This document shows positions 5,854 to 40,354 of a stretch of DNA of 45,700 bases, one piece after another. The stretch's first letter is position 1. Each line of letters starts with the position of its first letter. The notes under the pieces are model-generated. The model was not told the origin of the DNA and did no database searches. It saw nothing but the letters and a program-made list of their open reading frames with translations. The position numbers and the translations under genes are program-made. Location of the stretch: positions 30,920-76,619 of the forward strand of contig JAPYSK010000002.1 in NCBI GenBank assembly GCA_029936515.1. Direction: 5' to 3'. Origin of the DNA: Candidatus Thioglobus sp. Lineage in GTDB: Bacteria > Pseudomonadota > Gammaproteobacteria > PS1 > Pseudothioglobaceae.

Positions 5854-6849
5854 TTAAGTTTTTAAACCAATCTTATAAGACGTTGGCGTTAATTGTGTTT
5901 GACTAATAAACCACCTAATAAATGAAGAAGGATCTGAATATCCAAGCTTATAAGAGACAACTTTAACTGAAAGATCCTCTTTCAACATATTTTTTGATTT
6001 ATTTAGCTTATAGTTGTTAAATACTTGTCGAAAAGTTGTTTTATCTCTGGATAAATGATTACGAAGTGTGTTCACACTTATACCTAACTGATTAGATATT
6101 TCCTGAATACTAATATTGTTGTAGTGATTTTCATAATTACTCATTAAGTTCTCGATTTTTTCAGTAAGAGTTGTATTGACAGCTCTCTCTTCCAAAATTT
6201 TTATTGCAATTGAACTTAAATAAGAAATAAGTTTAGGGTTTGAAATACTACTTTTTTTTAAATAATTGCTCTGACTAACAGTAATTGATGTTTCTGTACT
6301 GTTAAGATTAATCGGGCAATTAAATATAGATTTCTCTTTTAAGCTGGCATCAATTGCATTTATTTTTGTATTTATACATTTAATTTGAAATCGTTTAGAT
6401 CTAATAAATGCAGCAAGCACTGAGAGACATAAATTCTCATATATTGAAGGATGCTTAACTTTTTGGTCTGCAATAAATTGGATTTTAACAGCGCTTTGTT
6501 CCTCTTTGATTAGGACGTTGATGCCTTCAAGCTCAATATTGATATAAGCTTGAAGTAGTTTAAAGCCTTCTTTCAAATGCCTAGAGTACAAAAACATTAA
6601 CCCTAAGGACTCAGCATAGTTTGGTCTTATTTGAGCGAGTCTTGCATAGTTTATTGTAATTAAGTCATCATTAAAAACAGATTCTGCTTCTATAAAAAAA
6701 TTTAAAAACATATCAATCGGTAGCGTTAAATTTTGATTTGATAACATCGATTCTGATAAGCCAATTCTATTGCATATTTCACCTACCTCTTTTGGGTATA
6801 TTTGTTGCAATCTAAAGATTGACCTCCAGGTCATACGGTTAATATTCAT
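5854..6849 (-). CDS. AraC-family transcriptional regulator with Arabinose_bd-type N-terminus
   Basis: 331 residues. The C-terminal ~85 residues form the double helix-turn-helix DNA-binding domain of AraC/XylS proteins: ISIQEISNQLGISVNTLRNHL as the first motif and VVSYKLGYSDPSSFIRWF as the second. The N-terminal ~200 residues resemble the ligand-sensing domain found in OruR/ArgR-like and lipid-responsive AraC regulators (GLSESMLSNQN, then a segment around YAESLGLMFLYSRHLKEGF). It is transcribed divergently from fadE across a 158-bp gap, so it probably controls the beta-oxidation operon in response to an acyl compound. That is inference from position. The start could be Met1 or Met6; neither has a good ribosome-binding site. 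Confidence 0.85.
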   Translation of the reverse strand: MNINRMTWRSIFRLQQIYPKEVGEICNRIGLSESMLSNQNLTLPIDMFLNFFIEAESVFNDDLITINYARLAQIRPNYAESLGLMFLYSRHLKEGFKLLQAYINIELEGINVLIKEEQSAVKIQFIADQKVKHPSIYENLCLSVLAAFIRSKRFQIKCINTKINAIDASLKEKSIFNCPINLNSTETSITVSQSNYLKKSSISNPKLISYLSSIAIKILEERAVNTTLTEKIENLMSNYENHYNNISIQEISNQLGISVNTLRNHLSRDKTTFRQVFNNYKLNKSKNMLKEDLSVKVVSYKLGYSDPSSFIRWFISQTQLTPTSYKIGLKT

Positions 6850-6914
6850 GTGTTAATAGAAATAATAAAGGCTCTAATGATTATGATAAAGTATCAATAT
6901 TTTATTATATTATG

Positions 6915-6963
6915 TTAACTAAAATTATATTTTTATAACTATACTTGTTATTCAATTAGTTAA
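6915..6963 (+). promoter_or_regulatory. fadE-side promoter region with spaced inverted repeat
   Basis: A perfect 8-bp inverted repeat, TTAACTAA at 6915-6922 and TTAGTTAA at 6956-6963, brackets a TATACT -10-like box at 6940-6945. The DNA is very AT-rich, so chance matches are easy, and no good -35 box is present. It is plausible as an activator site for the divergent AraC-type regulator, which would explain the missing -35. Confidence 0.35.
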
Positions 6964-7007
6964 ATGCCTGTTTGTTATTCTTTAGGCGCTAAATAAGGAT
7001 AAATTTT

Positions 7008-9464
7008 ATGCTTGAAACAATATTTCAATATTCACTACTTTCATTTCTACTTTCTATAGTTTTACTTTTAATTGTTTTAGTAAAGACACGGGTAAAAATT
7101 TGGCAGCTATGGCTTTTAGCTATAGGATTAACTTACCCAGGTGCTGTCATAGCTAATCATCTAGGTGCACAGATCATACTATGTATTTTAGTTCTATTAG
7201 GAATCTTTCTTGTTCCTAGAATGAGGCTTTTAATATTCACAAAGCCACTTTTTAATTTAATGAGAAAATCACTACCTCCAATTGGCTTAACAGAAAGAAT
7301 TGCACTTGAGGCGGGAAGCGTTTGGTGGGATGCAGAATTATTTCAAGGTAATCCTAATTGGAAGCAATTATCAGATCTTAAGGCTACTGAGTTGACAGTT
7401 GAAGAACAAAGCTTTGTAGACAATGAAGTTGAAACACTGTGCTCTATGATTAATTCGTATGACATTGTTGCTAATCAAGACCTACCTAAAGAGGTTTGGA
7501 AATATATCTTTGATAAAGGCTTTTTAGGCTTAATTATTCCAAAAGAATTTAATGGCCTTGGATTTTCACACTTTGCTCACGCTATTATTGTGGGGAGACT
7601 TTCTTCGGCCTCACAATTTTTAGGTATCTCTGTTATGGTTCCAAATTCATTAGGGCCAGGTGAATTGCTTTTAAAGTATGGAACAGATGATCAAAAACAA
7701 TACTACTTACCTCGCTTAGCTAAGGGGAACGAGATCCCATGCTTTGGTCTGACCTCGACAGTTGCAGGTTCTGATGCGGGATCATTAATAGATAATGGCA
7801 TCGTCTGTTATGGTGAGTATGAGGGCAACGAAGTATTAGGATTAAGGTTGAATTGGGAAAAGCGATACATAACTCTTGCCCCTATTGCTACAGTTATAGG
7901 GCTGGCCTTTAAGGCATATGATCCAGATAACTTATTACCAGTTGATCACCCTCTTCATAAGAAAAATGATTTAGGTATTACATGTGCACTTATACCTCGC
8001 AATGCTAAGGGTTTGACTATAGGTTCCCGTCATCGACCAATTGGAGAGCCATTTCAAAATGGCCCTATCTATGGAAAAGATGTCTTTATACCTATGGACT
8101 GGATTATTGGTGGTGATAAGATGATCGGCCATGGCTGGAGAATGCTAATGGAGAGCCTAAGTGTTGGTAGAGGTATTTCACTTCCTGTTACTGGGGCATC
8201 AGCTACACAAGCCATGCTCCTAACTACCAGCACATATTCACAAACTCGCGAACAATTTGGCATACCTATAGCAAATATGGAGGGAATTCAAGAGAAGCTT
8301 TCAAATCTTGCTACCAATGCTTTCAGAGCTACTGCAAACATCAACTTGTCGACTTGGGCGCTTGATGCTGGACACAGACCATCAATCATTTCAGCTATAG
8401 TTAAGTATCGAAATACTCAACTACTGCAACAATCCTCGATTGATGCAATGGATATTCATGGTGGTAGAGCAGTTATGCAAGGCAAAAGAAACTATGTTGC
8501 CAATGTCTATGCGGGAGCACCAGTCGCAATTACTGTTGAGGGTGCAAACATATTAACTAGAAGCTTAATGATTTTTGGACAAGGCTTGATTAGGTGCCAT
8601 AAAACGATGCTGGATGAGCTAAATGCCCTCCATGACGACAGTAAAGATTCATTAATAAATTTTGACAAGGCACTAGTCAAACATGTCAGTAACTTTATTA
8701 ATAATATAGCAAGAGCAATTGTTTTTTCTTGGACTAGAGGTCGACTAGCAAAACCTTATGGCGACTCAACTACTAAAGTCTATTATCGTAATTTATCAGT
8801 TTTATCTGCAAAGTTTGCATGCTTAACCGATATTGCTTCTTTACTTTTGGGGGGATCTTTAAAGAGGAAAGAGATGATCTCTGGTCGTTTTGCGGATGCA
8901 ATTTCTGCAATGTATGAAATCAGCTCATGCCTTAAACTATACGAGGAAAAATTTCAAAACGATGATAATGTAAAAAGTATCCTTAAGTTATCCATTCTTA
9001 GATTGGCAAAAGAAGCCGACATGGCTATGATGGAAAATATAGAGAGTATGCCAATTAACAGAGTTTTTAAGGCGATATTGAAGTTCTTATTTTTTCCATT
9101 TTCAATTACAGGAGCCAAAATTGATGACAGATTAATAATCTCTACCTCTAAATCTATTAGCAACATAGATTGGCTATTAGAAAACTTATCTACCTGTATG
9201 TGTGCAAACTTAAAAGAGATCCCAGGTCATCCATTCTATATTTTGTTTCAAGGCTATGAGGCAGGTATCAAGTTAAAGGTGCTTAGAAAGAAAGCAAAAA
9301 AGGCAGGGTATAAGTACCAGCCAAGCATAACACTAGGGCAATGGTTACAAGGCTTAGTTGATAATAAAACTTTAACGAGCCAAGAAAGGGACGACTGGTT
9401 GAGACTGAATGATGTGGTTCTCGAATCTCTTAAGGTCGACGATTTTGAAAATGAAGAGACGTAA
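7008..9464 (+). CDS. fadE: Acyl-CoA dehydrogenase, FadE type
   Basis: 818 residues, close to E. coli FadE (814), and much longer than ordinary acyl-CoA dehydrogenases (about 380). The N-terminus (about 1-75) has two hydrophobic segments that should anchor it to the inner membrane. The catalytic dehydrogenase core covers about 100-530, with CFGLTSTVAGSDAGS for FAD/substrate binding and E511 in TVEGANILTRS as the likely catalytic base. The C-terminal ~280 residues are the FadE-specific domain (DUF1974). It performs the first, FAD-dependent step of beta-oxidation, acyl-CoA to trans-2-enoyl-CoA. It is the first gene of the operon; AAGGAT lies 9 nt before the ATG and fadB/N follows after 15 nt. 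Confidence 0.95.
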   Translation: MLETIFQYSLLSFLLSIVLLLIVLVKTRVKIWQLWLLAIGLTYPGAVIANHLGAQIILCILVLLGIFLVPRMRLLIFTKPLFNLMRKSLPPIGLTERIALEAGSVWWDAELFQGNPNWKQLSDLKATELTVEEQSFVDNEVETLCSMINSYDIVANQDLPKEVWKYIFDKGFLGLIIPKEFNGLGFSHFAHAIIVGRLSSASQFLGISVMVPNSLGPGELLLKYGTDDQKQYYLPRLAKGNEIPCFGLTSTVAGSDAGSLIDNGIVCYGEYEGNEVLGLRLNWEKRYITLAPIATVIGLAFKAYDPDNLLPVDHPLHKKNDLGITCALIPRNAKGLTIGSRHRPIGEPFQNGPIYGKDVFIPMDWIIGGDKMIGHGWRMLMESLSVGRGISLPVTGASATQAMLLTTSTYSQTREQFGIPIANMEGIQEKLSNLATNAFRATANINLSTWALDAGHRPSIISAIVKYRNTQLLQQSSIDAMDIHGGRAVMQGKRNYVANVYAGAPVAITVEGANILTRSLMIFGQGLIRCHKTMLDELNALHDDSKDSLINFDKALVKHVSNFINNIARAIVFSWTRGRLAKPYGDSTTKVYYRNLSVLSAKFACLTDIASLLLGGSLKRKEMISGRFADAISAMYEISSCLKLYEEKFQNDDNVKSILKLSILRLAKEADMAMMENIESMPINRVFKAILKFLFFPFSITGAKIDDRLIISTSKSISNIDWLLENLSTCMCANLKEIPGHPFYILFQGYEAGIKLKVLRKKAKKAGYKYQPSITLGQWLQGLVDNKTLTSQERDDWLRLNDVVLESLKVDDFENEET

Positions 9465-9479
9465 ATTAATAGGAATACT

Positions 9480-11918
9480 ATGAAACAATATTTTGATAAA
9501 GCTTTTAGCAAGATTGCTGTACTCGGTTCAGGAACAATGGGCGGTCAAATTGCAGCACACTTTGCTAATTTAGGATTTGAGGTTGTCATGTTTGATACGA
9601 GTCATGAGGCTCTATCTAAATCACTTAACATGATGAAAAAATTGAAGCCCACACCTTTGGCAAGTCAGTCAGTTATTGGATTGATTAAAACCTCAACATA
9701 TGACACGATGGATGTCTTATCTAAATGCGATTTTATAATAGAGTCTGTTGTTGAAAATTTAGACATCAAAAAGCAACTATTTTCTAATATCGCACCTTAC
9801 GTAAATGATGATGCGGTATTAGTAACAAATACTTCTGGCTTGTCAATTCAAAAAATTGCTGAACACTCTCCAGAGAGTTTAAGAAGTCGAATTTTTGGAG
9901 TTCACTTCTTTAACCCTCCTAGATATTTGCCATTGGTTGAGTTAATTCGGACTTCATTTAGCGATGAAAAGTTACTTCATAAGGCCGAGGGTTTCATTAC
10001 TTCTGCTTTAGGCAAAGAGGTTGTTTATGCCAAGGATAGCCCAGCTTTTATTGCAAATAGAATAGGTGTTTTTTCTTTTTTAGCTGTTTTAAAGCATGCA
10101 GAAAACTTCTCTCTTTCCGCAGATACGGTCGACGCTTTAACTGGAAAGAGAGTCGGGAGGCCAGCAAGCGCTACATTTAGAACGCTTGATGTTGTTGGTC
10201 TTGATGTTATGTCGAACGTTGTCAAAAATATTTATAAAAATGCAAAAGATGACCCCTGGGTAGAGCTATTTAAACTTCCAGATTGGATAGACAATTTAAT
10301 TGCAAAAGGCTCTCTTGGAAGTAAGACTAAAAAAGGGATTTATGAAAAAATAGGAAAGGATATATATGTTTATGATCCTGCCTCAGATCAATATAGACTC
10401 TCAGATAAAACCATTAGTTCTGAAGTCAAAAAAATCCTGAAAGAAAACGGCAATATCGAAAACTCTCTACTTGCCCTTTCCAAATGCGATGATCCTCAAG
10501 CTCAATTTTTATGGTCTGTTCATCGAGATGTATTTCATTACGCTTGCTACCAACTTGAGCATATTGCTGAAACAGTTAGGTGCGTTGATCTAGCTTTAAA
10601 ATCAGGCTTTGGCTGGAAGAGAGGTATCTTTGAACAAGTTCAACTTACTGGCTGGAGTGAAGTAAGAGATAGCTTGAATGTGGATATCAATAATGGAAAA
10701 TCTCTCTCAAGTGAGTCTTTGCCATCTTGGGTTCTTGATAAATCCTTTGTTTATTCAGATGAAGGGGCCTATGATCCAAATAAGAATAAATACATTCCTA
10801 GATCTTCTCACCCAGTCTATGACAGGCAGTTATTCAAACCTCTCTTAAAAGGTGAGAAGCAGCATCAACAAGATATTTTACTAGACGGTGAGTCAACTAA
10901 GCTGGTTGATATAGGTGACGGTGTTGCTAGCATATCGTTTAAAACGAAGATGAATGTTTTAAGTTCAAGCGTTTTGACTGAGTTGCCAAAGTGTCTTGAC
11001 TTTCTTGAAGATAATAGCTTTAATGCATTGATCTTTAAGCAGGAACAAGAACACTTCTGTGCTGGAGCAAATCTGTATGAAATTATTTCAGCCATTAAGT
11101 TAGGTCTTTTAGAGAAAGATCCAGGTATAGCATCAAAAGCTAAGAAAAAGGCTTTTGAGGTTATGCATCCAGAGTTGCCTAAACTAGGAAAGCTTTACTC
11201 GATTAAAAAAACAGTTGCTATGTTGCAAGAATTATTAATGCGTTTAAAACATGGCAGGATATTAACCATAGCAGCAGTTGATGGTTTGGCTCTGGGTGGT
11301 GGCTGTGAGTTACTTTTGCATTGCAACAAAGTAGTTGCATCAATGAATTCTTATATTGGCCTAGTTGAAGTAGGTATCGGTGCTTTGCCAGCAGGGTGCG
11401 GCAGTAAGGAAATGGCTCTAAGGGCATATCTTAATAAAGAGACAGATGATATCTTTCCATTACTCTCTAAATACTTTGAGCAGATTGCTATGGCCAAAGT
11501 ATCTGCAAGCGCATTAGAGGCAAAGGAGATGGGCTATCTAAGAGATGATGATGTTATTATTGCTAATCCAAATGAATTGCTTTATGTCGCAAAACAACAA
11601 GCATTAGCATTACTTGATTCAGGCTTTAAGTCTCCTTTAGATTCAACTTTTAAAGTTGTTGGTAAGGCAGGTTATGCAAATATTATGGCGCAAGTTGCTA
11701 ATCTATATGAGGGGCACTTTATGTCGGAGCATGATAATTATTGTGTTACTCGCTTAGCAAGGGTAATGACTGGCTCAAAGGTTGAAGAAAATACTACAGT
11801 TAATTCACAAATGATTCTGGATCTTGAAAGGGAGTATTTTATTAAACTCTTAGGCACTCAAAAAACTCAGGATCGAATTGAATACATGCTGAGAAATAGT
11901 AAACCACTTCGTAATTAA
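9480..11918 (+). CDS. 3-hydroxyacyl-CoA dehydrogenase / enoyl-CoA hydratase fusion (FadN-type order)
   Basis: 812 residues. The dehydrogenase half comes first: the Rossmann motif G16-S-G-T-M-G21, the NTSGLSI segment, GVHFFNPPRYLPLVELI with the catalytic His, and a second 3HCDH C-terminal unit up to about residue 430. The enoyl-CoA hydratase/crotonase half follows (about 475-700), with HFCAGANL, GLALGGGCELLLHC and LVEVGIGALPAG. Both crotonase glutamates are present, so hydration activity should be intact. E. coli FadB has the opposite order, while Bacillus FadN has this one. It catalyses steps two and three of beta-oxidation. It lies between fadE (15 nt) and the thiolase gene. Confidence 0.93.
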   Translation: MKQYFDKAFSKIAVLGSGTMGGQIAAHFANLGFEVVMFDTSHEALSKSLNMMKKLKPTPLASQSVIGLIKTSTYDTMDVLSKCDFIIESVVENLDIKKQLFSNIAPYVNDDAVLVTNTSGLSIQKIAEHSPESLRSRIFGVHFFNPPRYLPLVELIRTSFSDEKLLHKAEGFITSALGKEVVYAKDSPAFIANRIGVFSFLAVLKHAENFSLSADTVDALTGKRVGRPASATFRTLDVVGLDVMSNVVKNIYKNAKDDPWVELFKLPDWIDNLIAKGSLGSKTKKGIYEKIGKDIYVYDPASDQYRLSDKTISSEVKKILKENGNIENSLLALSKCDDPQAQFLWSVHRDVFHYACYQLEHIAETVRCVDLALKSGFGWKRGIFEQVQLTGWSEVRDSLNVDINNGKSLSSESLPSWVLDKSFVYSDEGAYDPNKNKYIPRSSHPVYDRQLFKPLLKGEKQHQQDILLDGESTKLVDIGDGVASISFKTKMNVLSSSVLTELPKCLDFLEDNSFNALIFKQEQEHFCAGANLYEIISAIKLGLLEKDPGIASKAKKKAFEVMHPELPKLGKLYSIKKTVAMLQELLMRLKHGRILTIAAVDGLALGGGCELLLHCNKVVASMNSYIGLVEVGIGALPAGCGSKEMALRAYLNKETDDIFPLLSKYFEQIAMAKVSASALEAKEMGYLRDDDVIIANPNELLYVAKQQALALLDSGFKSPLDSTFKVVGKAGYANIMAQVANLYEGHFMSEHDNYCVTRLARVMTGSKVEENTTVNSQMILDLEREYFIKLLGTQKTQDRIEYMLRNSKPLRN

Positions 11919-11930
11919 TTGGAGAACATG

Positions 11931-13124
11931 ATGAGAAAAGCTTATATTATTGATGCAAAAAGAACTCCAGTTGGTAAAGTCAGAGGCTTGTTGTCTAAAA
12001 CTAGAGCAGATGACTTATTAGTTCATGCAATAAAAAGTGTCCTAATAGCATCTGACGTTAGCGAAGAAATTAATAAAAATATTGATGATATTATTGTTGG
12101 TTGCGCAATGCCAGAAGGCCCTCAAGGGCTTAACATTGCTCGCATAGCAACATTGCTAGCTGGCTTACCGGACTCGACTCCAGCATACACTCTCAATAGA
12201 TTTTGCTCATCAGGACTACAGTCTGTATCTAATGCAGCAGATCTTGTTAAGTCAGGCTCTGCAGATCTAGTGATTGCTGCCGGAGTAGAAAGTATGAGTA
12301 GCGTTCCTATGACAGGCTTCAAGCCATCTATGAATCCAAAAATATTATCTGATGAAAATATTTCCATCGCTTATGGGATGGGATTGACGGCAGAAAAGGT
12401 CGTTCAGAAATATAATATTTCAAGGGAAGCTCAGGATGAGTTTGCTTTTGATAGTCACCAAAAAGCAATCTTAGCCAATAGCAACGGCTTATTTGTAAAT
12501 GAAATTTCACCAATTACTACAATTGAAAATGGCTACTCCATAGATTCCAAGGAGTACACAACAAATTCTAATATTGTTTCTCAAGATGAAGGGCCGAGAG
12601 AGGATACAAGTCTTGAAGTTTTAGCCAAGCTTAGAACTGTATTTGCGCAGGATGGTTCAGTTACCGCAGGAAACAGCTCACAAATGTCTGATGCTGCTGC
12701 TGCTGTTCTAGTTGCTAGTGAAGAAGCGGTCGAGAAATATAACCTAACACCGAAAGCAGAATTTATTGGCTTTTCGGTTGCAGGCGTTCCTGCAGAAATA
12801 ATGGGTATTGGGCCTATAAAGGCTGTCCCTAAGGTTTTAAAATCGGTGGGATTAAGTCTTGATGATATTGGCTGGATAGAGCTGAATGAAGCATTTGCAG
12901 CGCAATCTTTGGCTGTCATTAGTGAGTTAGGCTTGGATACTCAAAAAGTTAACCCACTGGGCGGTGCTATTGCTCTTGGACATCCATTAGGTGCAACGGG
13001 TGCTATACGCGTAGCAACTCTAGTATCAGCTATGCAAAGAGAAAACATTGATTATGGTATGGTCACCATGTGTATAGGTACTGGTATGGGCGCAGCTGGA
13101 ATTATCAAAAATATAAGAAATTAA
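11931..13124 (+). CDS. Acetyl-CoA C-acyltransferase (3-ketoacyl-CoA thiolase)
   Basis: 397 residues from ATG 11931. The frame is open from TTG 11919, but GGAG at 11921-11924 is the ribosome-binding site and gives correct 6-nt spacing to ATG 11931 (ATG 11928 would be too close). Thiolase hallmarks are the nucleophile C92 in NRFCSSGLQS, NPLGGAIALGHPLGATGA with the conserved His, and C in MCIGTGMGAA as the acid/base cysteine. It performs the final thiolytic step of beta-oxidation, releasing acetyl-CoA. The preceding dehydrogenase/hydratase gene ends only 12 nt upstream, as for the FadB/FadA pair. It could equally act on acetoacetyl-CoA. Confidence 0.93.
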   Translation: MRKAYIIDAKRTPVGKVRGLLSKTRADDLLVHAIKSVLIASDVSEEINKNIDDIIVGCAMPEGPQGLNIARIATLLAGLPDSTPAYTLNRFCSSGLQSVSNAADLVKSGSADLVIAAGVESMSSVPMTGFKPSMNPKILSDENISIAYGMGLTAEKVVQKYNISREAQDEFAFDSHQKAILANSNGLFVNEISPITTIENGYSIDSKEYTTNSNIVSQDEGPREDTSLEVLAKLRTVFAQDGSVTAGNSSQMSDAAAAVLVASEEAVEKYNLTPKAEFIGFSVAGVPAEIMGIGPIKAVPKVLKSVGLSLDDIGWIELNEAFAAQSLAVISELGLDTQKVNPLGGAIALGHPLGATGAIRVATLVSAMQRENIDYGMVTMCIGTGMGAAGIIKNIRN

Positions 13125-14105
13125 ATGGAAAATAAAAACTTTATCAAAAAATTAAGACTGCCAATTATTCAGTCGCCAATGTTTATCGTATCCAACGCAA
13201 GGCTAGTTATTGCCTCATCAAAGGCGGGAATTGTTGGCTCATTCCCAACGGCGAATTGTCGAACATTGGAAGCTTTGGATGAATCCTTTTCAGAAATAAC
13301 AGCAGCCCTAGGTACTGGCAAAGATGCACTTCCTTGGTCAGTTAATATTATTGTTAGTAAGATGTATGCTCGAAGTAATGATGATTTAGATTTAATCCTT
13401 AAGTACAAACCCCCTATCGTAATAACATCACTCGGAAACCCTAAGGAGGTTGTAGAGAAAGTCCATGAGTATGGCGGATTAGTTTTTTCAGACGTTATTA
13501 ATTTATATCACTCAAAAAAAGCAATTAGCGTTGGCGTAGACGGTTTAATTTTGATTTGTAATGGAGCTGGCGGACATACCGGAGATTTATCTCCCTTTGC
13601 TTTTGTCTCAGAGGTAAGAGAAATCTTTGATGGCATAATTATTGTTGGCGGAAGTATCAGCTCGGGTGATTCTATACTAGCGATCCAGGCTTTAGGTGCA
13701 GATATGGCGTACATGGGAACTCGCTTTATCGCAACTCAAGAAAGTGACGCTACTGATGAATACAAAGAGATGATACTAAATGCTACAGCAAGTGAGATTG
13801 TTAAGTCTAATAAAATTACAGGTGTTAACGGAAATTGGCTAGAGCAGTCATTGAAAAATGCCGGTATTTCAACTAAAGATGGTGGCTTTAAAAAAACATT
13901 GAGTGATTTAAAGAGAATGATAATGCCACTCATAAAACAAAAACTCAAAGTAGATTTTGATATAAGCAAAGTTACTGCCAAGAGATGGCGTGATATTTTT
14001 TCAGCAGGACAGGGTGTTGGCTCTATTTCCAATGTGCCCAGCGTTGAAGATTTAGTGATAGAATTAGAACAACAACATACCAAATCTAAAAGTCGAATTT
14101 TATAA
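13125..14105 (+). CDS. Nitronate monooxygenase / 2-nitropropane dioxygenase-like FMN protein
   Basis: A 326-residue TIM-barrel flavoprotein. The start LRLPIIQSPMFIVSN matches the family N-terminus. H151 in GAGGHTG is the conserved catalytic histidine, and the FMN phosphate loop is visible as IIVGGSISSG followed by MGTRFIATQES. The ATG directly abuts the thiolase stop codon, so translation is probably coupled. Family members oxidise nitronates, but many homologues sit in fatty-acid, steroid or aromatic degradation operons and act on unknown CoA or enoyl substrates, some resembling the enoyl reductase FabK. Its presence inside a beta-oxidation operon argues for an acyl-related role here (inference). 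Confidence 0.85.
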   Translation: MENKNFIKKLRLPIIQSPMFIVSNARLVIASSKAGIVGSFPTANCRTLEALDESFSEITAALGTGKDALPWSVNIIVSKMYARSNDDLDLILKYKPPIVITSLGNPKEVVEKVHEYGGLVFSDVINLYHSKKAISVGVDGLILICNGAGGHTGDLSPFAFVSEVREIFDGIIIVGGSISSGDSILAIQALGADMAYMGTRFIATQESDATDEYKEMILNATASEIVKSNKITGVNGNWLEQSLKNAGISTKDGGFKKTLSDLKRMIMPLIKQKLKVDFDISKVTAKRWRDIFSAGQGVGSISNVPSVEDLVIELEQQHTKSKSRIL

Positions 14106-14114
14106 GGAAAAAAA

Positions 14115-14684
14115 ATGTTATCTAAGGCAGCTAAGAGGGATTTAAAGCACAATAGAACAATTGAAGGTAAGGGCTATAAAAGAGAGGATGGGCTTTGGGA
14201 TATTGAAGTTTTTCTCATTGATAGTAAGACATTCTCATTTAATAATATGCACAAAGGTTATATTAGTGCAGGAGAGCCGTTGCATGATATGGCCATTAGA
14301 CTAACGCTCGATGATGACAGAAAGATTATTGATATAGAGGCTGTTATTGGCTCAGGCCCTTATAACGTATGTCCTCAAGCGGTAATAAATTGTGAAAAAT
14401 TAAAAGGGGAATTTGTAGTCTCAGGCTTTAATAGGAAGGTTTTAAAAATATTAGGCTCAGAAAAAGGTTGCCGGCATATAACAGATTTGTTGGCTCATGC
14501 TGCAACGATAGCTTATCAAACACTTTGGAAAGAAAAAACTGCTGACAATGTTAAAACAATCTCTTTAGATGAGGTCAAGTCAATTGAAAAAAAATTTGCA
14601 AACTCTTGTTATGCATTTAAGAAAGATGGAGAGGTCTATAATCAGTATAAAGAAATCTTGATTAATAAATTAGAGAAGAATTAA
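14115..14684 (+). CDS. DUF2889 family protein
   Basis: 189 residues. The opening REDGLWDIEVFLIDSKTF and the following HDMAIRLTLDDDRKIIDIEAVIGS, with GCRHITDLLAH further on, match the DUF2889 family as I remember it. There are no membrane segments or signal peptide, so it should be cytoplasmic. The function is unknown. It lies in the beta-oxidation operon, 9 nt after the nitronate monooxygenase-like gene and 25 nt before the acyl-CoA ligase gene. The conserved His, Asp and Cys residues (CRH, HDM, YNVCPQ) could form a metal or catalytic site, but this is speculation. Confidence 0.75.
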   Translation: MLSKAAKRDLKHNRTIEGKGYKREDGLWDIEVFLIDSKTFSFNNMHKGYISAGEPLHDMAIRLTLDDDRKIIDIEAVIGSGPYNVCPQAVINCEKLKGEFVVSGFNRKVLKILGSEKGCRHITDLLAHAATIAYQTLWKEKTADNVKTISLDEVKSIEKKFANSCYAFKKDGEVYNQYKEILINKLEKN

Positions 14685-14697
14685 TAATTAACTTAAA

Positions 14698-14709
14698 GGG
14701 GGGGGAGGC
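14698..14709 (+). promoter_or_regulatory. Ribosome-binding site containing a G8 homopolymer
   Basis: Eight consecutive Gs (14698-14705), then AGGC, immediately precede the ATG at 14710. Such a G run is rare in this AT-rich sequence. It overlaps the Shine-Dalgarno position, so length changes would alter the ribosome-binding-site strength or spacing of the acyl-CoA ligase gene. Confidence 0.6.
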
Positions 14710-16359
14710 ATGGAAACAGAGATACCAAACAAACTTGAAGATACAGAATTTTTTAAAGAGCATGCCAACCTAGTTGATTTTTTTAATAACTCTTGCAATA
14801 AGCATAGTGAAAAAATAGCTTTTGAAAGTTATGGTGTTGAGATGTCTTTTGATGAGCTTTCTTTACAAGTAAATTCCTTTGCCTCATGGCTCAGTCAAAA
14901 TTTCAAGCCTGGAGACAGGATTGCAGTTATGATGCCAAATATGTTGGCTTATCCAGTCATCGTTTATGGTGCATTGATGGCTGGAGTTATTGTCATAAAT
15001 ATAAACCCTCTATACACTCCAAGAGAATTAGAGCATGTATTAAGAGATAGTGAAGCCAAGTTATTGCTAGTTTGGGAAGGGGTTGCCCATGTTGTCGAAA
15101 AATCAAACCTTGCTAGTGTAGATAAAGTGGTAGTTACTACTATTGGAGATCTTCTTGGTTTTAAAGGAAAGATTATTAATTTTGTTGCCAGAAAGGTTAA
15201 AAAATTAGTACCAAAATTTAATATAAATGGCACACTAGCATTCACAGAAGTTTTAAACGAAGGTGCAAAAATAGATTTTTCTGGTGTTGAAATATCGATA
15301 AATGATACCGCATTTTTGCAATATACTGGTGGCACAACTGGAGTGTCTAAGGGGGCAATACTGACACATCGAAATATTCTAGCAAACATTATTCAAGCTT
15401 TTTTTACTCTAGATCCAAAAATGTATGAAAACTCTGATAATGAGCAAAGAGTTGCAATTTGTCCGCTACCGCTTTATCACATTTTTGCCCTTACAGTGCA
15501 CAACTTCATGTTGTTTCATATTGGAGGTAAGAGTGTTCTCGTGACCAACCCAAGGGACCTTAAAACTTTTATTTCAATTCTGAAAAAACATAAGTTTCAT
15601 ATGATTTCAGGCGTCAATACACTTTATGAAGCGCTACTAAATAGTGATGGTTTTAAAAATTTAGATTTTAGTAACCTGATTATGTCCTTAAGTGGTGGGA
15701 TGGCGGCGTTAGATACAACTGCAAAGAGATGGTATGAGGTAACAAATTCGATCGTTTGGCAGGCTTACGGCTTAACCGAGACTTCCCCTCTTGTTAGTGT
15801 GAATGACTATAGACAAACTGAATTTACTGGCTCTGTTGGTTTGCCTGCTGCATTCACTGAGATTCAAATTCGAGATGAAGAGAATAATGTATTAACTGAA
15901 ACCAACGCAGTTGGTGAGCTTTGTGTTCGCGGGCCACAGGTTATGAGAGGCTATTGGAACTCAGAGCTTTCAGGCCTAGATGAAAATAATTGGTTCATGA
16001 CTGGAGATATTGCTCGAGTAGATGAAACTGGTAATATTTTTATTGTTGATCGTAAAAAAGATATGATTATAGTTTCTGGATTTAATGTATTTCCAAATGA
16101 GGTAGAGGCTGTGGTTAATGAGCATCCTGCAGTACTTGAATGTGGATGTGTTGGAATTGAAGGTAAGGATTCACAAGAACTTGTTAAAGTATTTATAGTC
16201 CTTCATGAAGGCCAAGAATTATCGGAGGAAGAAATTATTTCTTTTTGTCGTGAAAAATTAACTGCTTACAAAGTTCCTAAGCATATTGAATTTATTAAAG
16301 AGATTCCAAAAACGAATGTTGGTAAAGTTTTAAGAAGAGAGTTAAAAACTAACTCTTAA
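14710..16359 (+). CDS. fadD: Long-chain fatty-acid--CoA ligase (AMP-forming)
   Basis: 549 residues, close to E. coli FadD (561). It is an adenylate-forming enzyme with the P-loop signature YTGGTTGVSKGA followed by LTHRN, the AYGLTETSP motif, the hinge MTGDIARVDETGNIFIVDRKKDMIIVSGFNVFP and the C-terminal lysine in PKTNVGKVLRR. The FadD/FACS signature around DRKKDMI is visible. It activates fatty acids to acyl-CoA at the inner membrane face and feeds FadE. It is the last gene of the beta-oxidation operon and is preceded by a G-rich ribosome-binding site. No clear terminator follows. The six-gene operon therefore carries every enzyme from free fatty acid to acetyl-CoA. Confidence 0.93.
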   Translation: METEIPNKLEDTEFFKEHANLVDFFNNSCNKHSEKIAFESYGVEMSFDELSLQVNSFASWLSQNFKPGDRIAVMMPNMLAYPVIVYGALMAGVIVININPLYTPRELEHVLRDSEAKLLLVWEGVAHVVEKSNLASVDKVVVTTIGDLLGFKGKIINFVARKVKKLVPKFNINGTLAFTEVLNEGAKIDFSGVEISINDTAFLQYTGGTTGVSKGAILTHRNILANIIQAFFTLDPKMYENSDNEQRVAICPLPLYHIFALTVHNFMLFHIGGKSVLVTNPRDLKTFISILKKHKFHMISGVNTLYEALLNSDGFKNLDFSNLIMSLSGGMAALDTTAKRWYEVTNSIVWQAYGLTETSPLVSVNDYRQTEFTGSVGLPAAFTEIQIRDEENNVLTETNAVGELCVRGPQVMRGYWNSELSGLDENNWFMTGDIARVDETGNIFIVDRKKDMIIVSGFNVFPNEVEAVVNEHPAVLECGCVGIEGKDSQELVKVFIVLHEGQELSEEEIISFCREKLTAYKVPKHIEFIKEIPKTNVGKVLRRELKTNS

Positions 16360-16428
16360 CTTTGTATTGCCTCACCTATTGAAAGTCTGAATAATAATCT
16401 ATAAGGTTACTTGTTAGAGAGTGAAGCC

Positions 16429-16503
16429 ATGTATTATTTAAAGCAGAAAATAGCGGAGCGAGATGAACAATGGAGGCAAGACTATCAACTGCAAAGCAAG
16501 TGA
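16429..16503 (+). other. Possible 24-codon ORF in the gap before the Liv operon
   Basis: ATG at 16429 runs 24 codons to TGA 16501-16503, giving MYYLKQKIAERDEQWRQDYQ plus four residues. The peptide is hydrophilic and charged. GAGAGTGAAG lies upstream, so a ribosome-binding site is possible. I do not recognise it. The 195-nt gap 16360-16554 otherwise shows no convincing promoter or terminator. The ORF may be a leader peptide, a remnant, or chance. Confidence 0.2.
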
Positions 16504-16554
16504 GTGAGATTGTTTGCTTTAAAAGAACTAATTTAATGGCTATGACTAAAGTCA

Positions 16555-17421
16555 ATGAATGAGTTCTTGCAATTGCTTATAGTTGGCATTAGTCAAGGCT
16601 GTATATATGGCTTGATGGCATTAGGCTTTGTGATGATATACAAGGCCACCGAGATGGTTAATTTTGCTCAGGGCGATATGATGATGCTGGGATCGTTTGT
16701 TGCCTGGACATTAATAATGGATTTGGGCATGCCTTTCTGGCTCGGCGTTCCTGCCACGCTGATTGTCATGGCATTGTTTGGCGCTCTTGTCGACATTCTG
16801 ATAGTGCGTCGAGTGATTGGACAACCTCAGTTCGCCGTTATCATTCTAACCCTAGGGCTGGGTATCATCTTTCGTGCGGCTGCAGGGATGATTTGGGGAC
16901 ATGTACCGTTGACTATCGATAGCCCCATTTCAGGCTTTAGCAGCTTTTACGGAATTGTTATAGGCAATGAGCGGTTGGTAATTATTGCTGTAACAGCACT
17001 ATTGATAACAATTCTATGGACATATTTCCGTTACTCTAAATGGGGTGTTGCCATGAAAGCTACGTCTCAAAACCAGCTTGCCGCTTACTATTCTGGGATT
17101 CCCGTGAGAGTTATCATCTCCGCTGTTTGGGCTGTTGCCGCAGCAATTTCAGCTCTGGCTGGCATTCTATTGGCTCCAATCACACTGATTGAGCCGATGA
17201 ACGGCTTGCTAGGTATTAAGGCTTTTGCCGCCGCCGTGATAGGTGGCTTCGGATCGATGCCAGGCGCTATTCTTGGTGGGCTGATTGTTGGCATTATAGA
17301 ACCCTTTGCAGCCGCATATATTCCTGCAGTCAAGGGTAGTATGGTCTACATTGTAATGTTGATAGTGCTGGCTTTACGGCCACAGGGATTATTTGCTCAA
17401 ATTCATAAAAAGAAGCTTTGA
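16555..17421 (+). CDS. Branched-chain amino acid-type ABC transporter permease (LivH family)
   Basis: A 288-residue, strongly hydrophobic inner-membrane protein with about eight transmembrane segments. Family features are GISQGCIYGLMALGFVMIYKA near the start, VNFAQGDMMMLG, the EAA-like loop with GIPVRVIISAVW, and GGFGSMPGAILGGLIVGI near the end. It pairs with the LivM-type permease that follows. It belongs to the LivH branch commonly found next to an acyl-CoA synthetase gene rather than a classical leucine transporter, so the substrate may be an organic or aromatic acid. No clear Shine-Dalgarno sequence precedes the ATG. This gene marks the left edge of a region with much higher GC and a different codon choice than the fad operon upstream. 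Confidence 0.9.
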   Translation: MNEFLQLLIVGISQGCIYGLMALGFVMIYKATEMVNFAQGDMMMLGSFVAWTLIMDLGMPFWLGVPATLIVMALFGALVDILIVRRVIGQPQFAVIILTLGLGIIFRAAAGMIWGHVPLTIDSPISGFSSFYGIVIGNERLVIIAVTALLITILWTYFRYSKWGVAMKATSQNQLAAYYSGIPVRVIISAVWAVAAAISALAGILLAPITLIEPMNGLLGIKAFAAAVIGGFGSMPGAILGGLIVGIIEPFAAAYIPAVKGSMVYIVMLIVLALRPQGLFAQIHKKKL

Positions 17422-17422
17422 T

Positions 17423-18499
17423 ATGAGAATCCTGTTCAAAACTAATTATAAGCAAGACTTAAATCTAGCAAAACATAGCGGGCATCGCTTTTGGTATGGC
17501 TTGCTAATCCTTGTTCTGTTAGCTGCGCCTCTGATACTCGATGGCTATTATATCGGTGAGGCAACGCGCGTGCTTATCTTTGCTATGGCAGGTTTGGGTT
17601 TAATGGTGGTAACCGGTTTTACAGGACAGGTTAGTCTCGGCCACGCAGCATTCTTGTTAATCGGCGCCTATACAAATGCCTGGTTTCTAGCCCAGGGGTT
17701 TTCCTCCTTTATAGCACTGCCAATGGCCGCCTTGCTGAGCATGATAGGAGGGCTGCTAGTTGCCATTCCTGCAGCAAGGATGTCAGGCATATATCTGGCA
17801 ATAGCAACCTTGGTTTTTGCTATTATTGTGGAGGATGTTGCTGGCCATCTCAGCAGTATCACCGGAGGCAATCGTGGCATGATGGTCGATGTTCCAATGC
17901 TGTTTGGCTATCAAATATGGCAGTCCTGGGAGCTCTACCTGTTTGTCTTGATCATCTTAGTCGCTGCCACTCTGATAGTATTGAATATATTGCGCTCTCC
18001 ACTGGGTCGCGCAATGATTGCAGTAAGAGACTCCGAAGTCTCGTCCCAAGCATTGGGTGTGAATCCGATGAAAATTAAAGTTTTTGCCTTTACCGTGTCA
18101 GCTGCCATAACGGGTTTGGCAGGGGCCTTTTTAGCACACTATATGTTGTTTCTGACACCGCAAATATTCGGAATTTTATTGTCCATCCAGCTACTATTGA
18201 TGATTGTATTAGGAGGTCTTGGCACCGTCCATGGTGTATTTTTTGGAGCTGTATTGATTGGCGTGCTGGAAACCGGTATATCTATTGCGAAAGACGCCCT
18301 ACCATCTTCGATTGGCGGCTTACCAGGAATAGAGCCGCTCGTTTTTGGGGTGATACTGGTCAGCGTGATCGCATTCGAGCCGACCGGCATCTACAGCCGT
18401 TGGGTCAAGATTCGCAGCTATATGGAATTTTTCCCCATTTATAGGCGCAAGAGTTTTAAGCGACAGAGGGTCTACTTGAAAACGGAGCGATTAAAATGA
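17423..18499 (+). CDS. Branched-chain amino acid-type ABC transporter permease (LivM family)
   Basis: 358 residues from ATG 17423. An upstream in-frame TTG at 17393 would overlap livH by 29 nt and is less likely, since AGAAG precedes the ATG at suitable distance. About eight to ten hydrophobic segments are present, with GLGLMVVTGFTGQVSLGHAAF, ITGGNRGMM, the ABC-contact loop SPLGRAMIAVRDSEVSSQALGV, and GGLGTVHGVFFGAVLIG. The C-terminal tail has FFPIYRRKSFKRQ, typical of the Liv systems that travel with acyl-CoA synthetases. It ends with the ATGA overlap into the LivG-type ATPase gene, so translation is coupled. GC-rich codons match the rest of this block. Confidence 0.9.
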   Translation: MRILFKTNYKQDLNLAKHSGHRFWYGLLILVLLAAPLILDGYYIGEATRVLIFAMAGLGLMVVTGFTGQVSLGHAAFLLIGAYTNAWFLAQGFSSFIALPMAALLSMIGGLLVAIPAARMSGIYLAIATLVFAIIVEDVAGHLSSITGGNRGMMVDVPMLFGYQIWQSWELYLFVLIILVAATLIVLNILRSPLGRAMIAVRDSEVSSQALGVNPMKIKVFAFTVSAAITGLAGAFLAHYMLFLTPQIFGILLSIQLLLMIVLGGLGTVHGVFFGAVLIGVLETGISIAKDALPSSIGGLPGIEPLVFGVILVSVIAFEPTGIYSRWVKIRSYMEFFPIYRRKSFKRQRVYLKTERLK

Positions 18500-19260
18500 G
18501 CTTCCTTGAAATCAAAAACCTCTCAATTTCCTTTGGTGGCGTCAAAGCGGTTGACGATGTAAGTTTTTCTATCGAAGAGGGTTCGGTGTACGCAATCATC
18601 GGACCAAATGGCGCAGGAAAATCCACCATCTTTAATTTATTAAGCCGATTCTATGAGCCCCTATCTGGGCAGCTGAACTTTTCCGGCAACGAACTATTGG
18701 AGCTTGGTGCCAAAGACATTGCACGCCTAGGTATCGCCAGAACATTTCAAAATCTGGAGTTGTTCGAGCATGCTTCTGTTTTACAAAATCTCTTGGTGGG
18801 TAGACATGTGCATAACAATCAAAGCTGGTGGCGTCAAATGTTGTTCACCAGAAGCGTTGTGGAGGCGGAACTGGAACATCGAAGAAAGGTGGAAGAAGTA
18901 ATCGATTTTCTGGAGCTGGCTCACTATCGAAACCAAATGATTTCGGGCCTGCCCTATGGTGTGCGAAAGAAGATTGAGCTGGCAAGGGCCCTTTGTATTG
19001 AGCCCAAGCTATTATTGCTAGACGAGCCCTCATCAGGACTCAACCCCGAGGAGACAGAGGAAATGGGGTTTTGGATCGAGGATATCAGGCGAGACTTGAA
19101 TATTACCGTCGTCTTGATTGAACACGACATGTCTCTAGTGGCGGAGGTCTCCGACCGGGTGCTGGCAATTGTCAATGGTAGGGTTGCCACAGAAGGGAGC
19201 CATGCCTTTGTACAGAGCCATCCTGATGTCGTTTCCGCCTACCTAGGAGACGTTAAATGA
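18496..19260 (+). CDS. ABC transporter ATP-binding protein (LivG family)
   Basis: A 254-residue cytoplasmic ATPase subunit. It shows Walker A (GPNGAGKST at about residues 36-44), a signature degenerate for this family (SGLPYGVRKKIELARAL), Walker B (LLLLDEPSSGLNP) and the H-loop (VVLIEHDMSLV). It lacks the perfect LSGGQ and has the LPYG version that is normal in LivG homologues. ATGA overlaps join it to livM upstream and livF downstream. It pairs with the LivF-type ATPase to drive transport through the two permeases. Confidence 0.93.
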   Translation: MSFLEIKNLSISFGGVKAVDDVSFSIEEGSVYAIIGPNGAGKSTIFNLLSRFYEPLSGQLNFSGNELLELGAKDIARLGIARTFQNLELFEHASVLQNLLVGRHVHNNQSWWRQMLFTRSVVEAELEHRRKVEEVIDFLELAHYRNQMISGLPYGVRKKIELARALCIEPKLLLLDEPSSGLNPEETEEMGFWIEDIRRDLNITVVLIEHDMSLVAEVSDRVLAIVNGRVATEGSHAFVQSHPDVVSAYLGDVK

Positions 19261-20033
19261 GCAAATCTCCATTATTACAAGTGCGCAATATAGAAACGTT
19301 CTATGGTCCTGTAATGGCGATTCGTGGAATAAGCCTCGACGTTCACAAAGGGAAAATTGTTAGTATTTTGGGAGGAAATGGCGCCGGAAAAACTACAATT
19401 CTTAAAACTATTTGTGGCGCACTGGAGCCGCAAAAAGGCACTGTAGTATTCTCTGGCCAAGACATTACGGCCTGGCAGCCGGATAAGGCCGCCAGGCAAG
19501 GTATGGGCCACGTACCCGAAGGGAGAGAGGTATTTCCATTTCTAAGCGTCAAAGAAAACCTAGAAATGGGAGCTTACAACCGCAAAGGGAAAAACGAGAT
19601 TGATGACGATTTAGAGATGGTTTTCCACTATTTTCCAGACTTAAAGAACAAGATCAATCTACAGGCCGTGCTTCTGTCCGGGGGGCAACAGCAAATGCTG
19701 GCGATGGGAAGAGCGCTAATGATGCGACCGGAAATTCTACTTCTGGACGAGCCATCCCTTGGCTTGTCACCCTTGCTGGTTAGTGAAATTTTTGACATTA
19801 TCTACCGCCTCAACTCCGAGCAAGGTGTCACCATGCTTCTAGTGGAACAGAATGCTCATATGGCTTTAAAGGTATCTCACACTGGCTACGTGATCGAAAC
19901 GGGACGGGTTGTTTTTGACGGAGACCGTGACGCCCTGTTGAACAACCCTGACATTCAGGAGTTCTATTTAGGGAAAAAGCAAGCTATCGGTCGAGAAAAG
20001 CGTCGCTGGAAACAACGCAAAACCTGGAGATAG
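19257..20033 (+). CDS. ABC transporter ATP-binding protein (LivF family)
   Basis: A 258-residue ATPase. It has Walker A (GGNGAGKTT), a LSGGQQQMLAMGRAL signature, Walker B (ILLLDEPSLGLSP) and the H-loop region MLLVEQNAHMAL. The conserved GMGHVPEGREVFP of LivF is present. The tail REKRRWKQRKTWR is longer and more basic than in E. coli LivF. This arginine-rich end is typical of the version found beside AMP-forming acyl-CoA synthetases. It starts inside the livG stop (ATGA) and is followed after 3 nt by the synthetase gene, so all five genes from livH are one transcription unit. Confidence 0.93.
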   Translation: MSKSPLLQVRNIETFYGPVMAIRGISLDVHKGKIVSILGGNGAGKTTILKTICGALEPQKGTVVFSGQDITAWQPDKAARQGMGHVPEGREVFPFLSVKENLEMGAYNRKGKNEIDDDLEMVFHYFPDLKNKINLQAVLLSGGQQQMLAMGRALMMRPEILLLDEPSLGLSPLLVSEIFDIIYRLNSEQGVTMLLVEQNAHMALKVSHTGYVIETGRVVFDGDRDALLNNPDIQEFYLGKKQAIGREKRRWKQRKTWR

Positions 20034-20036
20034 AGG

Positions 20037-21863
20037 ATGAATACTGAAGAAATAATCAGCTTTGATAATCAAACCTCGATCCCAGCATTGTTTCGCTTTA
20101 GGGCGCAAACGCTAAAGAATAAAGTAGCCATGCGTGAGAAACATTTCGGCATCTGGCGGACGTTTTCCTGGGATCAGTATTATTCGAATAGCGCCCGCAT
20201 AGGCAAGTCTATGATAGCGCTAGGTCTGGAACCTGGTCAAACCGTTTCCATACTCGCCGACCCATGTAAGGAGTGGCTATTTTTCGATCTCGCTGCCCAG
20301 TGTATTGGCTGTGTTTCCTGCGGAATTTATGCGACGGATTCGGCGCCCCAAATTCTTCATATTTGTGAAGATAGCGATACAACTCTACTGATGGTCGAGA
20401 ACGAAGAGCAGCTTGACAAATATTTGGTGGTGGAAGAGCGACTACCAAATATCCATACGGTGGTTGTTCTAGACTCCACCGGACTAGCCGATCTGGACCA
20501 CCCTAAAGTAGTAATGCTAGAGCAATTTTACCAATTGGGCGATGAGGGTGACGAAGGCCTCGAGTCAGAATGGAATAGGCGAATTGACAACGCAGAGCCC
20601 AACGATACAGTGATTTTGGTTTATACCTCAGGTACGACCGGCGCTCCAAAAGGGGCGATGCTTAGCCATAGAAATATTTTTTTTGTAGCACAGGCCTTTC
20701 ATGAGTTTTATCCAATCACGGCCGAAGACAACTCGGTTGTCTACCTACCGCTGTGCCACGTTACCGAGCGACTTCTATCAGTGTTTTTACCTTTAGCCCG
20801 CTGTTCAACGATTAACTTCATTGAGGGCCAGGACACCGCATTCGAAAATATTACCGAAGTTTCTCCAACCTACTTCCTGGGTGTACCCAGAATTTGGGAA
20901 AAAATGTATTCATCCATTATATTACGCATGAAGGATGCAACATGGGTTGGCAGAAAAGCTCTTCAAATGGCCCTATCTGTCGGCTCTATAGCTGCTGATT
21001 TTGAAGACAAGGAATTACCTGTTCCAGTACATGTTCGCCTGATGCATAGAGCTGCAGATTTTCTTGTTCTTAACAATATTAAAGTTCTCTTGGGCTTGGA
21101 CCGTGTGCGAATTGGCCTGACAGGCGCAGCACCTATCTCACCAGATTTGATTAGTTGGTTCCGTGCTTTGGGTGTACCCCTGTACGAGGCGTTTGGTCAA
21201 ACTGAAAATGTTGCGTTTGCATGTGGCAACCATCGAGGTCAAGTTCGCCTAGGCACGGTCGGCAAGCCACCGCCAGGCGTAGAGCTGAAAACCGCCAAAG
21301 ACGGTGAGTTGCTGATCAAGGGACCCTTGGTGTTCAAAGGGTATTATAAGCAAGCGCTTAAAACCGATGAGACAATCATTGATGGCTGGCTATACACTGG
21401 CGACATAGCTGAGATTGACGCCGATGGATTCGTTAAGATTGTGGATAGGAAGAAGGACATCATTATTACCTCTGGAGGCAAGAATATCAGTCCCTCTGAG
21501 ATTGAAAATCAGCTGAAATTTTCGCCTTATGTGACCGATGCAGTGGTAATCGGCGATGGGCGTAAATACTTAACCTGTTTGGTGATGATTGACAATGAAA
21601 CAGTGAGCCAGTTTGCCCAGGAAAACAATGTCCCATTCTCTGATTTTAAAAGTCTATGTGCAACAGCAGAGGTACAGTCGCTCATCAAAAGTGAAATTGA
21701 ACGAATCAATCTATCTTTGGCCCAAGTTGAAACTCTCAAGAAATTTAGACTGATCAACAAACAGCTAACGGTTGAAGATGACGAATTGACAGCGAGCATG
21801 AAGCTAAAACGCAATATTGTGAATGAAAAGTACGCTGATTTGATTAATCAGATGTACTCTTAA
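20037..21863 (+). CDS. AMP-forming acyl-CoA synthetase embedded in the Liv operon
   Basis: 608 residues of the long-chain acyl-CoA synthetase branch (closer to ACSL/FAA-type enzymes of about 600 residues than to FadD). Signatures are VYTSGTTGAPKGAMLSHRN, the YEAFGQTE motif, and YTGDIAEIDADGFVKIVDRKKDIIITSGGKNISPSEIE; the C-terminal lysine in SMKLKRNIVNEKY replaces the usual KTxxGK end. It begins 3 nt after livF and precedes livK. The natural inference is that the transporter imports a carboxylic acid which this enzyme converts to a CoA ester. Its substrate cannot be read from sequence. GC content and codon use match the Liv genes, not the fadD gene 4 kb away. Confidence 0.88.
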   Translation: MNTEEIISFDNQTSIPALFRFRAQTLKNKVAMREKHFGIWRTFSWDQYYSNSARIGKSMIALGLEPGQTVSILADPCKEWLFFDLAAQCIGCVSCGIYATDSAPQILHICEDSDTTLLMVENEEQLDKYLVVEERLPNIHTVVVLDSTGLADLDHPKVVMLEQFYQLGDEGDEGLESEWNRRIDNAEPNDTVILVYTSGTTGAPKGAMLSHRNIFFVAQAFHEFYPITAEDNSVVYLPLCHVTERLLSVFLPLARCSTINFIEGQDTAFENITEVSPTYFLGVPRIWEKMYSSIILRMKDATWVGRKALQMALSVGSIAADFEDKELPVPVHVRLMHRAADFLVLNNIKVLLGLDRVRIGLTGAAPISPDLISWFRALGVPLYEAFGQTENVAFACGNHRGQVRLGTVGKPPPGVELKTAKDGELLIKGPLVFKGYYKQALKTDETIIDGWLYTGDIAEIDADGFVKIVDRKKDIIITSGGKNISPSEIENQLKFSPYVTDAVVIGDGRKYLTCLVMIDNETVSQFAQENNVPFSDFKSLCATAEVQSLIKSEIERINLSLAQVETLKKFRLINKQLTVEDDELTASMKLKRNIVNEKYADLINQMYS

Positions 21864-21886
21864 GGGTTACAAACCATTCAACATAT

Positions 21887-21915
21887 TTGTGCAAGTAGAA
21901 AGATACAGGTATAGT
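21887..21915 (+). promoter_or_regulatory. Candidate promoter of the Liv-type binding protein gene
   Basis: TTGTGC (21887-21892) and TATAGT (21910-21915) are separated by 17 bp. The start site would be near 21922, about 39 nt before the ATG. A separate promoter, a strong AAAGGAG ribosome-binding site and a terminator after the gene fit the usual need for excess binding protein over membrane subunits. Confidence 0.5.
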
Positions 21916-21960
21916 GATAAGAAAAAATAATTAATAATAATAAGTAAAGGAGTAAAAACT

Positions 21961-40349: not shown

Positions 40350-40354
40350 ATCCC

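Follow-up and report, generated by a model that had tools for sequence, protein, structure and literature searches.

A stretch of 45,700 nucleotides from Candidatus Thioglobus sp. (contig JAPYSK010000002.1; the whole stretch is called the window below) carries a fatty-acid degradation operon in which a gene of the nitronate monooxygenase (NMO) superfamily and a gene of the DUF2889 family stand between the thiolase and the ligase genes. Within the genus, this NMO-like gene alternates with fadH, the gene for 2,4-dienoyl-CoA reductase. The explanation we prefer, to which we give a probability of about 0.42, is that the NMO-like protein is a flavin mononucleotide (FMN)-dependent enoyl- or dienoyl-CoA reductase that replaces FadH, and that DUF2889 is an IscU-like accessory protein for metal, Fe-S clusters or persulfide.

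Double bonds at even-numbered positions are beyond the core β-oxidation enzymes; in E. coli FadH deals with them, in eukaryotes the unrelated DECR (excerpts of PMC12691678). If our explanation is true, a further unrelated solution in the marine group SUP05/Thioglobus changes how the use of unsaturated fat is read from genomes, and proteins labelled 'nitronate monooxygenase' gain a function. The points of interest are a testable exchange of FadH for an NMO/FabK-family flavin enzyme, and a conserved small protein whose invariant His and Cys residues, on a predicted IscU-like fold, make it directly testable.

The fad operon and its two types in the genus

The six genes fadE, fadB-like, fadA, NMO-like, DUF2889 and fadD follow one another on the plus strand at 7008-16359, in a single direction and with intergenic gaps of 15, 0, 0, 9 and 25 bases, just as an earlier reading of the sequence (the original prediction) had described them (Table 1). 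They form one conserved, close-packed β-oxidation operon whose enzymes belong to known kinds, and because the gene order is kept in the genus, the arrangement is not due to chance. That reading had also counted a probable regulator among the operon genes. Such a gene is present, most likely the AraC-type one, although it lies on the minus strand just outside that range, divergent from fadE. An AraC gene is likewise divergent to fadE or fadH in the relatives whose contigs extend that far, and its product is the probable, predicted regulator of the operon. Counts of promoter-like and terminator-like sites across 6700-16700 did not exceed those in shuffled sequences. The FadB-like protein, with its 3-hydroxyacyl-CoA dehydrogenase domain first and its enoyl-CoA hydratase domain last, shares its domain order with the fused staphylococcal FadB-type enzyme but scores below the cut-off for that family; it presumably also resembles FadN of Bacillus.

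The host genome (an assembly of 1.44 Mb in 83 contigs) comes from a relative of SUP05 and 'Ca. Thioglobus', organisms of this kind being grouped under the clade name arctic96BD-19. Judged by the DUF2889 protein, the nearest named loci are those of the gammaproteobacterial single cell SCGC AB-629-P17 (88% identity), the Ca. Thioglobus metagenome-assembled genome (MAG) REDSEA-S12 (81%) and a MAG of the SUP05 cluster (80%). The family is present in 26 of 58 relatives, host included, and in 23 of the 29 genomes of the genus. In all 23 it lies inside the fad operon, two of these loci being cut by contig ends. The order fadA-NMO-DUF2889-fadD is found at 19 of the 20 NMO-type loci, the window among them; at the twentieth (G028) the contig ends inside the NMO gene. 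For these counts the named loci L035, L036, L037 and L038 were taken to be the same as those of G014, G022, G011 and G026, and were counted once. The neighbourhood survey proposed earlier thus finds the arrangement kept in close relatives. The fixed position claimed for the NMO-like gene holds within one clade but not across all fatty-acid operons, since sister lineages carry DUF2889 without it.

In 20 of the 23 DUF2889-bearing genomes of the genus there is an NMO orthologue of at least 81% identity and no FadH; the other three (G001, G019 and G026) have a FadH of 680 residues, at least 88% identical to the copy at L038, and no NMO orthologue. Both together are found in none of the 23. The L038 protein aligns full-length with the 2,4-dienoyl-CoA reductase of E. 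coli (1ps9; E-value 3.5e-258), and the remaining matches to FadH in the genus (E <= 1e-30) are only 27–33% identical.

FadH stands at the front of the operon, with a SnoaL-like gene, in G026 and G019, and the complete order in L134 and L136 is AraC | FadH-SnoaL-FadE-FadB-FadA-DUF2889-FadD, with AraC divergent. A further named MAG (L039) has the FadH-type order as well, while in G001 (L137) a contig end interrupts fadE, the remainder of which lies together with FadH on a second contig. In G032, of another genus in the same family, the order is AraC | FadH - FadE remnant - FadB - FadA, and DUF2889 is on a separate contig, adjoining a nitrilase-like gene. The SnoaL-like gene encodes about 128 residues and lies between fadH and fadE in L134/L038 (L038:3298-3684) and L136; L039 has an unlabelled frame of similar size at that place. 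The FadE remnant of G032 is short (L336:11195-11365, between FadH and FadB), and a separate partial FadE of 46% identity is found on another contig of that genome.

On an outgroup-rooted FadA tree the NMO type forms one clade (support 0.996) and the FadH type another (0.839), which makes the swap a single event. The FadB tree, which lost its outgroup to the length filter and was midpoint-rooted, also unites the FadH type (1.0). The direction of the swap is not given by either tree; in a sample of 321 gammaproteobacterial genomes (the class sample) FadH is commoner than the NMO homologue (50 versus 22 genomes).

The NMO-like protein as a possible FadH replacement

The Pfam NMO cut-off is passed, and the family includes solved nitronate monooxygenases, so a true nitronate monooxygenase, which would detoxify nitronates such as propionate-3-nitronate or handle nitro-fatty acids, has to be considered. 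We regard this as very unlikely. Searched against the PDB, the family profile is closer to FabK (5gvj, 5.8e-34) than to the class I enzyme 4q4k, whose match (1.1e-14) is partial and spans only residues 161-277 of 357, and neither the fad-operon setting nor the alternation with FadH offers a reason for nitronate work. The active-site set of PsNMO is Met18, Asn67, His176, Tyr297 and Lys305 (excerpts of PMC11510023); no positions could be assigned to its Tyr and Lys, the comparison having gone through the partial 4q4k match and not through PsNMO itself. Nothing that we found points to the nitro-fatty acids suggested in the original prediction.

The protein is best compared with FabK, which belongs to the same superfamily and provides its best solved relatives. 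The conserved GGH motif is present, its histidine (H151 of the window protein) being kept in 43 of 45 sequences. The two differ in that the present gene stands in a degradation operon, scores 103 bits against the curated FabK cut-off of 453 (TIGR03151), and occurs beside a FabI in the same genome that is 62% identical to that of E. coli. Because FabI is present, the NMO-like enzyme is not needed for fatty-acid synthesis, and with the FabK cut-off also missed we rejected it as an enoyl reductase of that pathway.

With FadH of E. coli (1ps9) the NMO-like protein shares its membership of the operon and its proposed role. It differs in its Pfam families, FadH consisting of Oxidored_FMN and Pyr_redox domains, and, unlike it, FadH has an Fe-S cluster (excerpts of PMC12691678). 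That such a replacement is feasible can be argued from E. coli. Without FadH it does not grow on linoleate and is jammed by linoleate in mixtures, and the deletion is rescued by unrelated eukaryotic reductases, though not by every construct (same excerpts). Because E. coli jams in this way, a stand-in is to be expected in organisms that use such fatty acids but have lost FadH; because eukaryotic reductases rescue it, an unrelated enzyme can serve as FadH.

In the mechanism we propose, the NMO-like protein would be an enoyl-thioester reductase of the FabK branch, FMN-dependent and working on CoA esters, with FMN binding and activity assumed from its family. It would reduce the 2,4-dienoyl-CoA that arises from even-position double bonds, so that β-oxidation would not be jammed. 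A role in enoyl reduction or unsaturated-fat use, one of several offered in the original prediction, is the one best favoured by the FadH alternation and the FabK-like profile. The more far-reaching proposal, that a new class of FMN-dependent 2,4-dienoyl-CoA reductases on the FabK/NMO barrel replaced the Fe-S enzyme FadH in a clade of marine bacteria, and that its operon partner DUF2889 is a new IscU-like protein of acyl-CoA catabolism for metal, Fe-S or persulfide, seems to us unlikely. Searches of one literature library returned nothing on point that joins nitronate monooxygenase with dienoyl-CoA reductase, and likewise nothing for Thioglobus with β-oxidation or for IpdC, which we assume to be an NMO-family CoA reductase, together with NMO.

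It could also be that the enzyme reduces or isomerizes other acyl-CoA substrates (2-enoyl-, branched or hydroxy-acyl-CoA) and that the loss of FadH is unrelated, which we hold to be possible but somewhat doubtful. There is a precedent in FabX of Helicobacter pylori, an NMO-family enzyme that acts on acyl thioesters and is capable of dehydrogenation and isomerization (excerpts of PMC8626469). FabX resembles the proposed enzyme in its family and kind of substrate, but works in synthesis, on acyl carrier protein substrates, and contains an additional Fe-S cluster; the likeness is drawn from its description there, not from sequence. Such a role would leave unexplained why NMO is absent exactly in the three DUF2889-bearing genomes of the genus that keep FadH.

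The homologues beyond the genus bear on both readings. A further 21 genomes of the class sample have NMO homologues of 43–50% identity. Of 24 such loci 23 had usable neighbourhoods, with at least two acyl-CoA genes within 5 kb in seven and at least one in 11, as against 0 and 2 of 20 background stretches, which were taken at spaced positions in six DUF2889-bearing genomes. One locus (L233) has the order acyl-CoA dehydrogenase-NMO-FadB-FadA, in a genome (G180) without FadH at E <= 1e-120. In a tree whose grouping is given without support values, L233, L246, L238, L241, L247, L253 and L108 are among the loci nearest to the clade of the genus; L108, from Neptunomonas, reads FadD-DUF2889-NMO-enoyl-CoA hydratase-electron transfer flavoprotein.

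Several of our observations weigh against a replacement of FadH. The alternation is a single evolutionary event and carries no statistical weight, and on the midpoint-rooted FadB tree the NMO type is not one clade. Six of the 29 genomes of the genus have neither DUF2889 nor the NMO orthologue nor FadH: the contigs of G008, G013 and G021 break off in fadB or fadE, and G005, G015 and G023 (completeness 53, 67 and 70%) are without a strong FadE match. In the class sample, where at most three candidates were scored per genome, FadH co-occurs with NMO homologues in 14 of 22 genomes, compared with 50 of 321 overall, and Neptunomonas, with NMO beside DUF2889, also carries FadH. This suggests a function distinct from that of FadH, as a role on other acyl-CoA substrates would have it, and the distant homologues, or the window protein too, may have such a role. 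The loss of FadH could mean that even-position double bonds are simply unused, and the host genome was covered only in part for dienoyl-CoA reductases of the short-chain dehydrogenase/reductase type. Mutual exclusion of FadH and NMO as a rule across Gammaproteobacteria we rejected on the 14 of 22 genomes and Neptunomonas.

DUF2889: neighbourhoods, conserved residues and predicted fold

In the original prediction DUF2889 was linked with the NMO-like gene as a pair, a link now weakened: DUF2889 is retained in FadH-type operons, which have no NMO, and on this ground we rejected an obligate pairing. The class sample has DUF2889 in 29 and NMO in 22 of its 321 genomes, with both in six. The role that we propose for DUF2889, by a weaker inference than that for the NMO-like enzyme, is that of an accessory recruited to several acyl-CoA catabolic operons (fad and leucine-type) and tied to neither reductase, its invariant His and three Cys and a nearly invariant His binding metal, an Fe-S cluster or persulfide.

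Neighbourhoods were usable at 22 of 28 class-sample loci and 56 of 75 named loci (L035-L039 excluded), the others having been dropped because no anchor was found or less than 3 kb remained on one side. At least two acyl-CoA genes were found within 5 kb at 5 of 22 class-sample loci, 8 of 56 named loci and none of the 20 background stretches, and at least one at 5 of 22, 10 of 56 and 2 of 20; genes were labelled by BLAST against a small reference set, which undercounts them. DUF2889 as a fatty-acid gene, the lead drawn earlier from its place in the operon, is therefore borne out at a minority of loci, as most of those examined show no acyl-CoA gene in this range. This also counts against our explanation, and it led us to reject DUF2889 as a fad-specific family.

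It could well be that DUF2889 is a housekeeping protein and its place in the fad operon incidental, a case of operon hitch-hiking; we see this as a serious possibility, though at less than even odds. It would fit the 17 of 22 class-sample and 46 of 56 named loci at which the search within 5 kb turned up no acyl-CoA gene, and neighbours elsewhere that include thioredoxin, rho, NusB, AIRS, PgpA and DNA polymerase families. Many alphaproteobacterial loci have gene sizes and order resembling aroK-aroB-CNNM-DUF2889-DnaJ-cobS-cobT, confirmed by Pfam for L095 alone (L095:6896-14175), where there is no fatty-acid gene. Among 71 neighbours scanned at class-sample loci no family was seen more than three times. 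Against this stand the 23 of 23 genomes of the genus with DUF2889 in the operon, the excess over background of loci with at least two acyl-CoA genes in the class sample, and two recurrent settings. DUF2889 lies directly, or one short frame, 3' of 3-hydroxy-3-methylglutaryl-CoA lyase in the leucine-type clusters L257, L258, L260, L275 and L277, and likewise by that gene in betaproteobacterial L060, L098, L104 and L112; it follows FadD in four Oceanospirillales-type loci (L058, L059, L087 and L108). Acyl-CoA clusters surround it in five of six annotated plasmid stretches (eight were taken of 27 matching records, two of them without a gene table), the sixth being from Burkholderia. At L031 (Burkholderia multivorans, NZ_CP020399.1) nifQ and a gene with a TOBE domain are close by, which possibly links it to molybdenum.

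In an alignment of the window protein with one sequence from each of 132 loci (matches of more than 130 residues, a few genomes being reached twice), H57, C86, C119, C165, D36, P82, G98 and G104 do not vary across all 133 sequences, and 131 of these also have H121. The structure prediction called for earlier gave confident models for the window protein (pLDDT 91.2) and a second member (93.2), both showing four long strands and then helices. IscU is the top match of the window model (Z 8.6, 95 residues aligned, 2.7 A), although the LplA C-domain, aldehyde oxidase and nicotinate dehydrogenase at Z 8.3-8.4 count as tied. Together, the invariant His/Cys set and the IscU-like predicted fold suggest a role with metal, cluster, persulfide or thiol.

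The likeness to IscU and NifU_N (PF01592) consists of a similar predicted fold and conserved Cys/His, whose placement was read by eye only; the differences are the extra invariant C165 and the lack of a significant profile match. Two results speak against it: the second model gives a three-way tie at Z 7.1 between RnfG, the LplA C-domain and ISCU2, and hhalign of DUF2889 against IscU is not significant (probability 1.9%, 1 of 40 decoys higher). In that non-significant alignment, whose register runs from H57 on, H57 falls opposite the D of the CGD motif in IscU. The only Pfam match at E <= 0.01 is PF11136, phmmer and hmmsearch against the PDB gave chance-level matches with IscU not among them, and Foldseek returned no match at E <= 0.001 from either the PDB or a set of viral models. 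The library searched held almost no literature on DUF2889, which is mentioned in passing by two papers, PF11136 being named by one; a de-DUFing paper gives it a SCOP link, and the passage of that paper mentioning the family names no superfamily.

Neighbouring clusters in the window

Table 1. Features of the window, with their positions and the profile matches behind the assignments
Feature	Position	Strand	Evidence
AraC-type regulator, probable operon regulator	5854..6849	-	HTH_18 1.8e-14; Arabinose_bd weak, below cut-off
fadE, acyl-CoA dehydrogenase	7008..9464	+	NF007000 896 bits (cut-off 600)
fadB-like bifunctional enzyme	9480..11918	+	Staph_FadB 534 bits, under cut-off 999
fadA, acetyl-CoA C-acyltransferase (thiolase)	11919..13124	+	PRK09052 603 bits (cut-off 567); TTG start as listed
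NMO-superfamily enzyme, FabK-like	13125..14105	+	NMO PF03060 101.9 bits (gathering cut-off 28)
DUF2889 protein	14115..14684	+	PF11136 114.1 bits (gathering cut-off 25)
fadD, long-chain fatty acid-CoA ligase, FadD-type	14710..16359	+	PRK07059 668 bits, under cut-off 869
Branched-chain-type ATP-binding cassette (ABC) transporter genes: livH, livM, livG, livF, acyl-CoA ligase, binding protein	16555-23127		
RpiR regulator, TAXI-TRAP transporter, aminotransferase, acetoacetyl-CoA synthetase-like gene	24299-32345		
Probable carnitine/gamma-butyrobetaine degradation cluster	38623-43229		

The liv cassette has a GC content of 0.41-0.47, compared with 0.32-0.39 across the fad operon, and its genes are 89-95% identical in L128, L133 and L135, where the complete fad genes are 79-89% identical. 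In other relatives an RpiR-TAXI-TRAP group or an acetoacetyl-CoA synthetase-like gene lies directly 3' of fadD. The cassette looks mobile or recently exchanged. Parts of the block that follows it in the window are directly 3' of fadD in several relatives.

The probable carnitine cluster comprises a thioesterase resembling the C-domain of carnitine 3-dehydrogenase, an acyl-CoA dehydrogenase, an acyl-CoA ligase and a crotonobetainyl-CoA hydratase-like protein (383 bits against a cut-off of 500). A ProV/choline-type ABC ATPase at 45151 accompanies this cluster.

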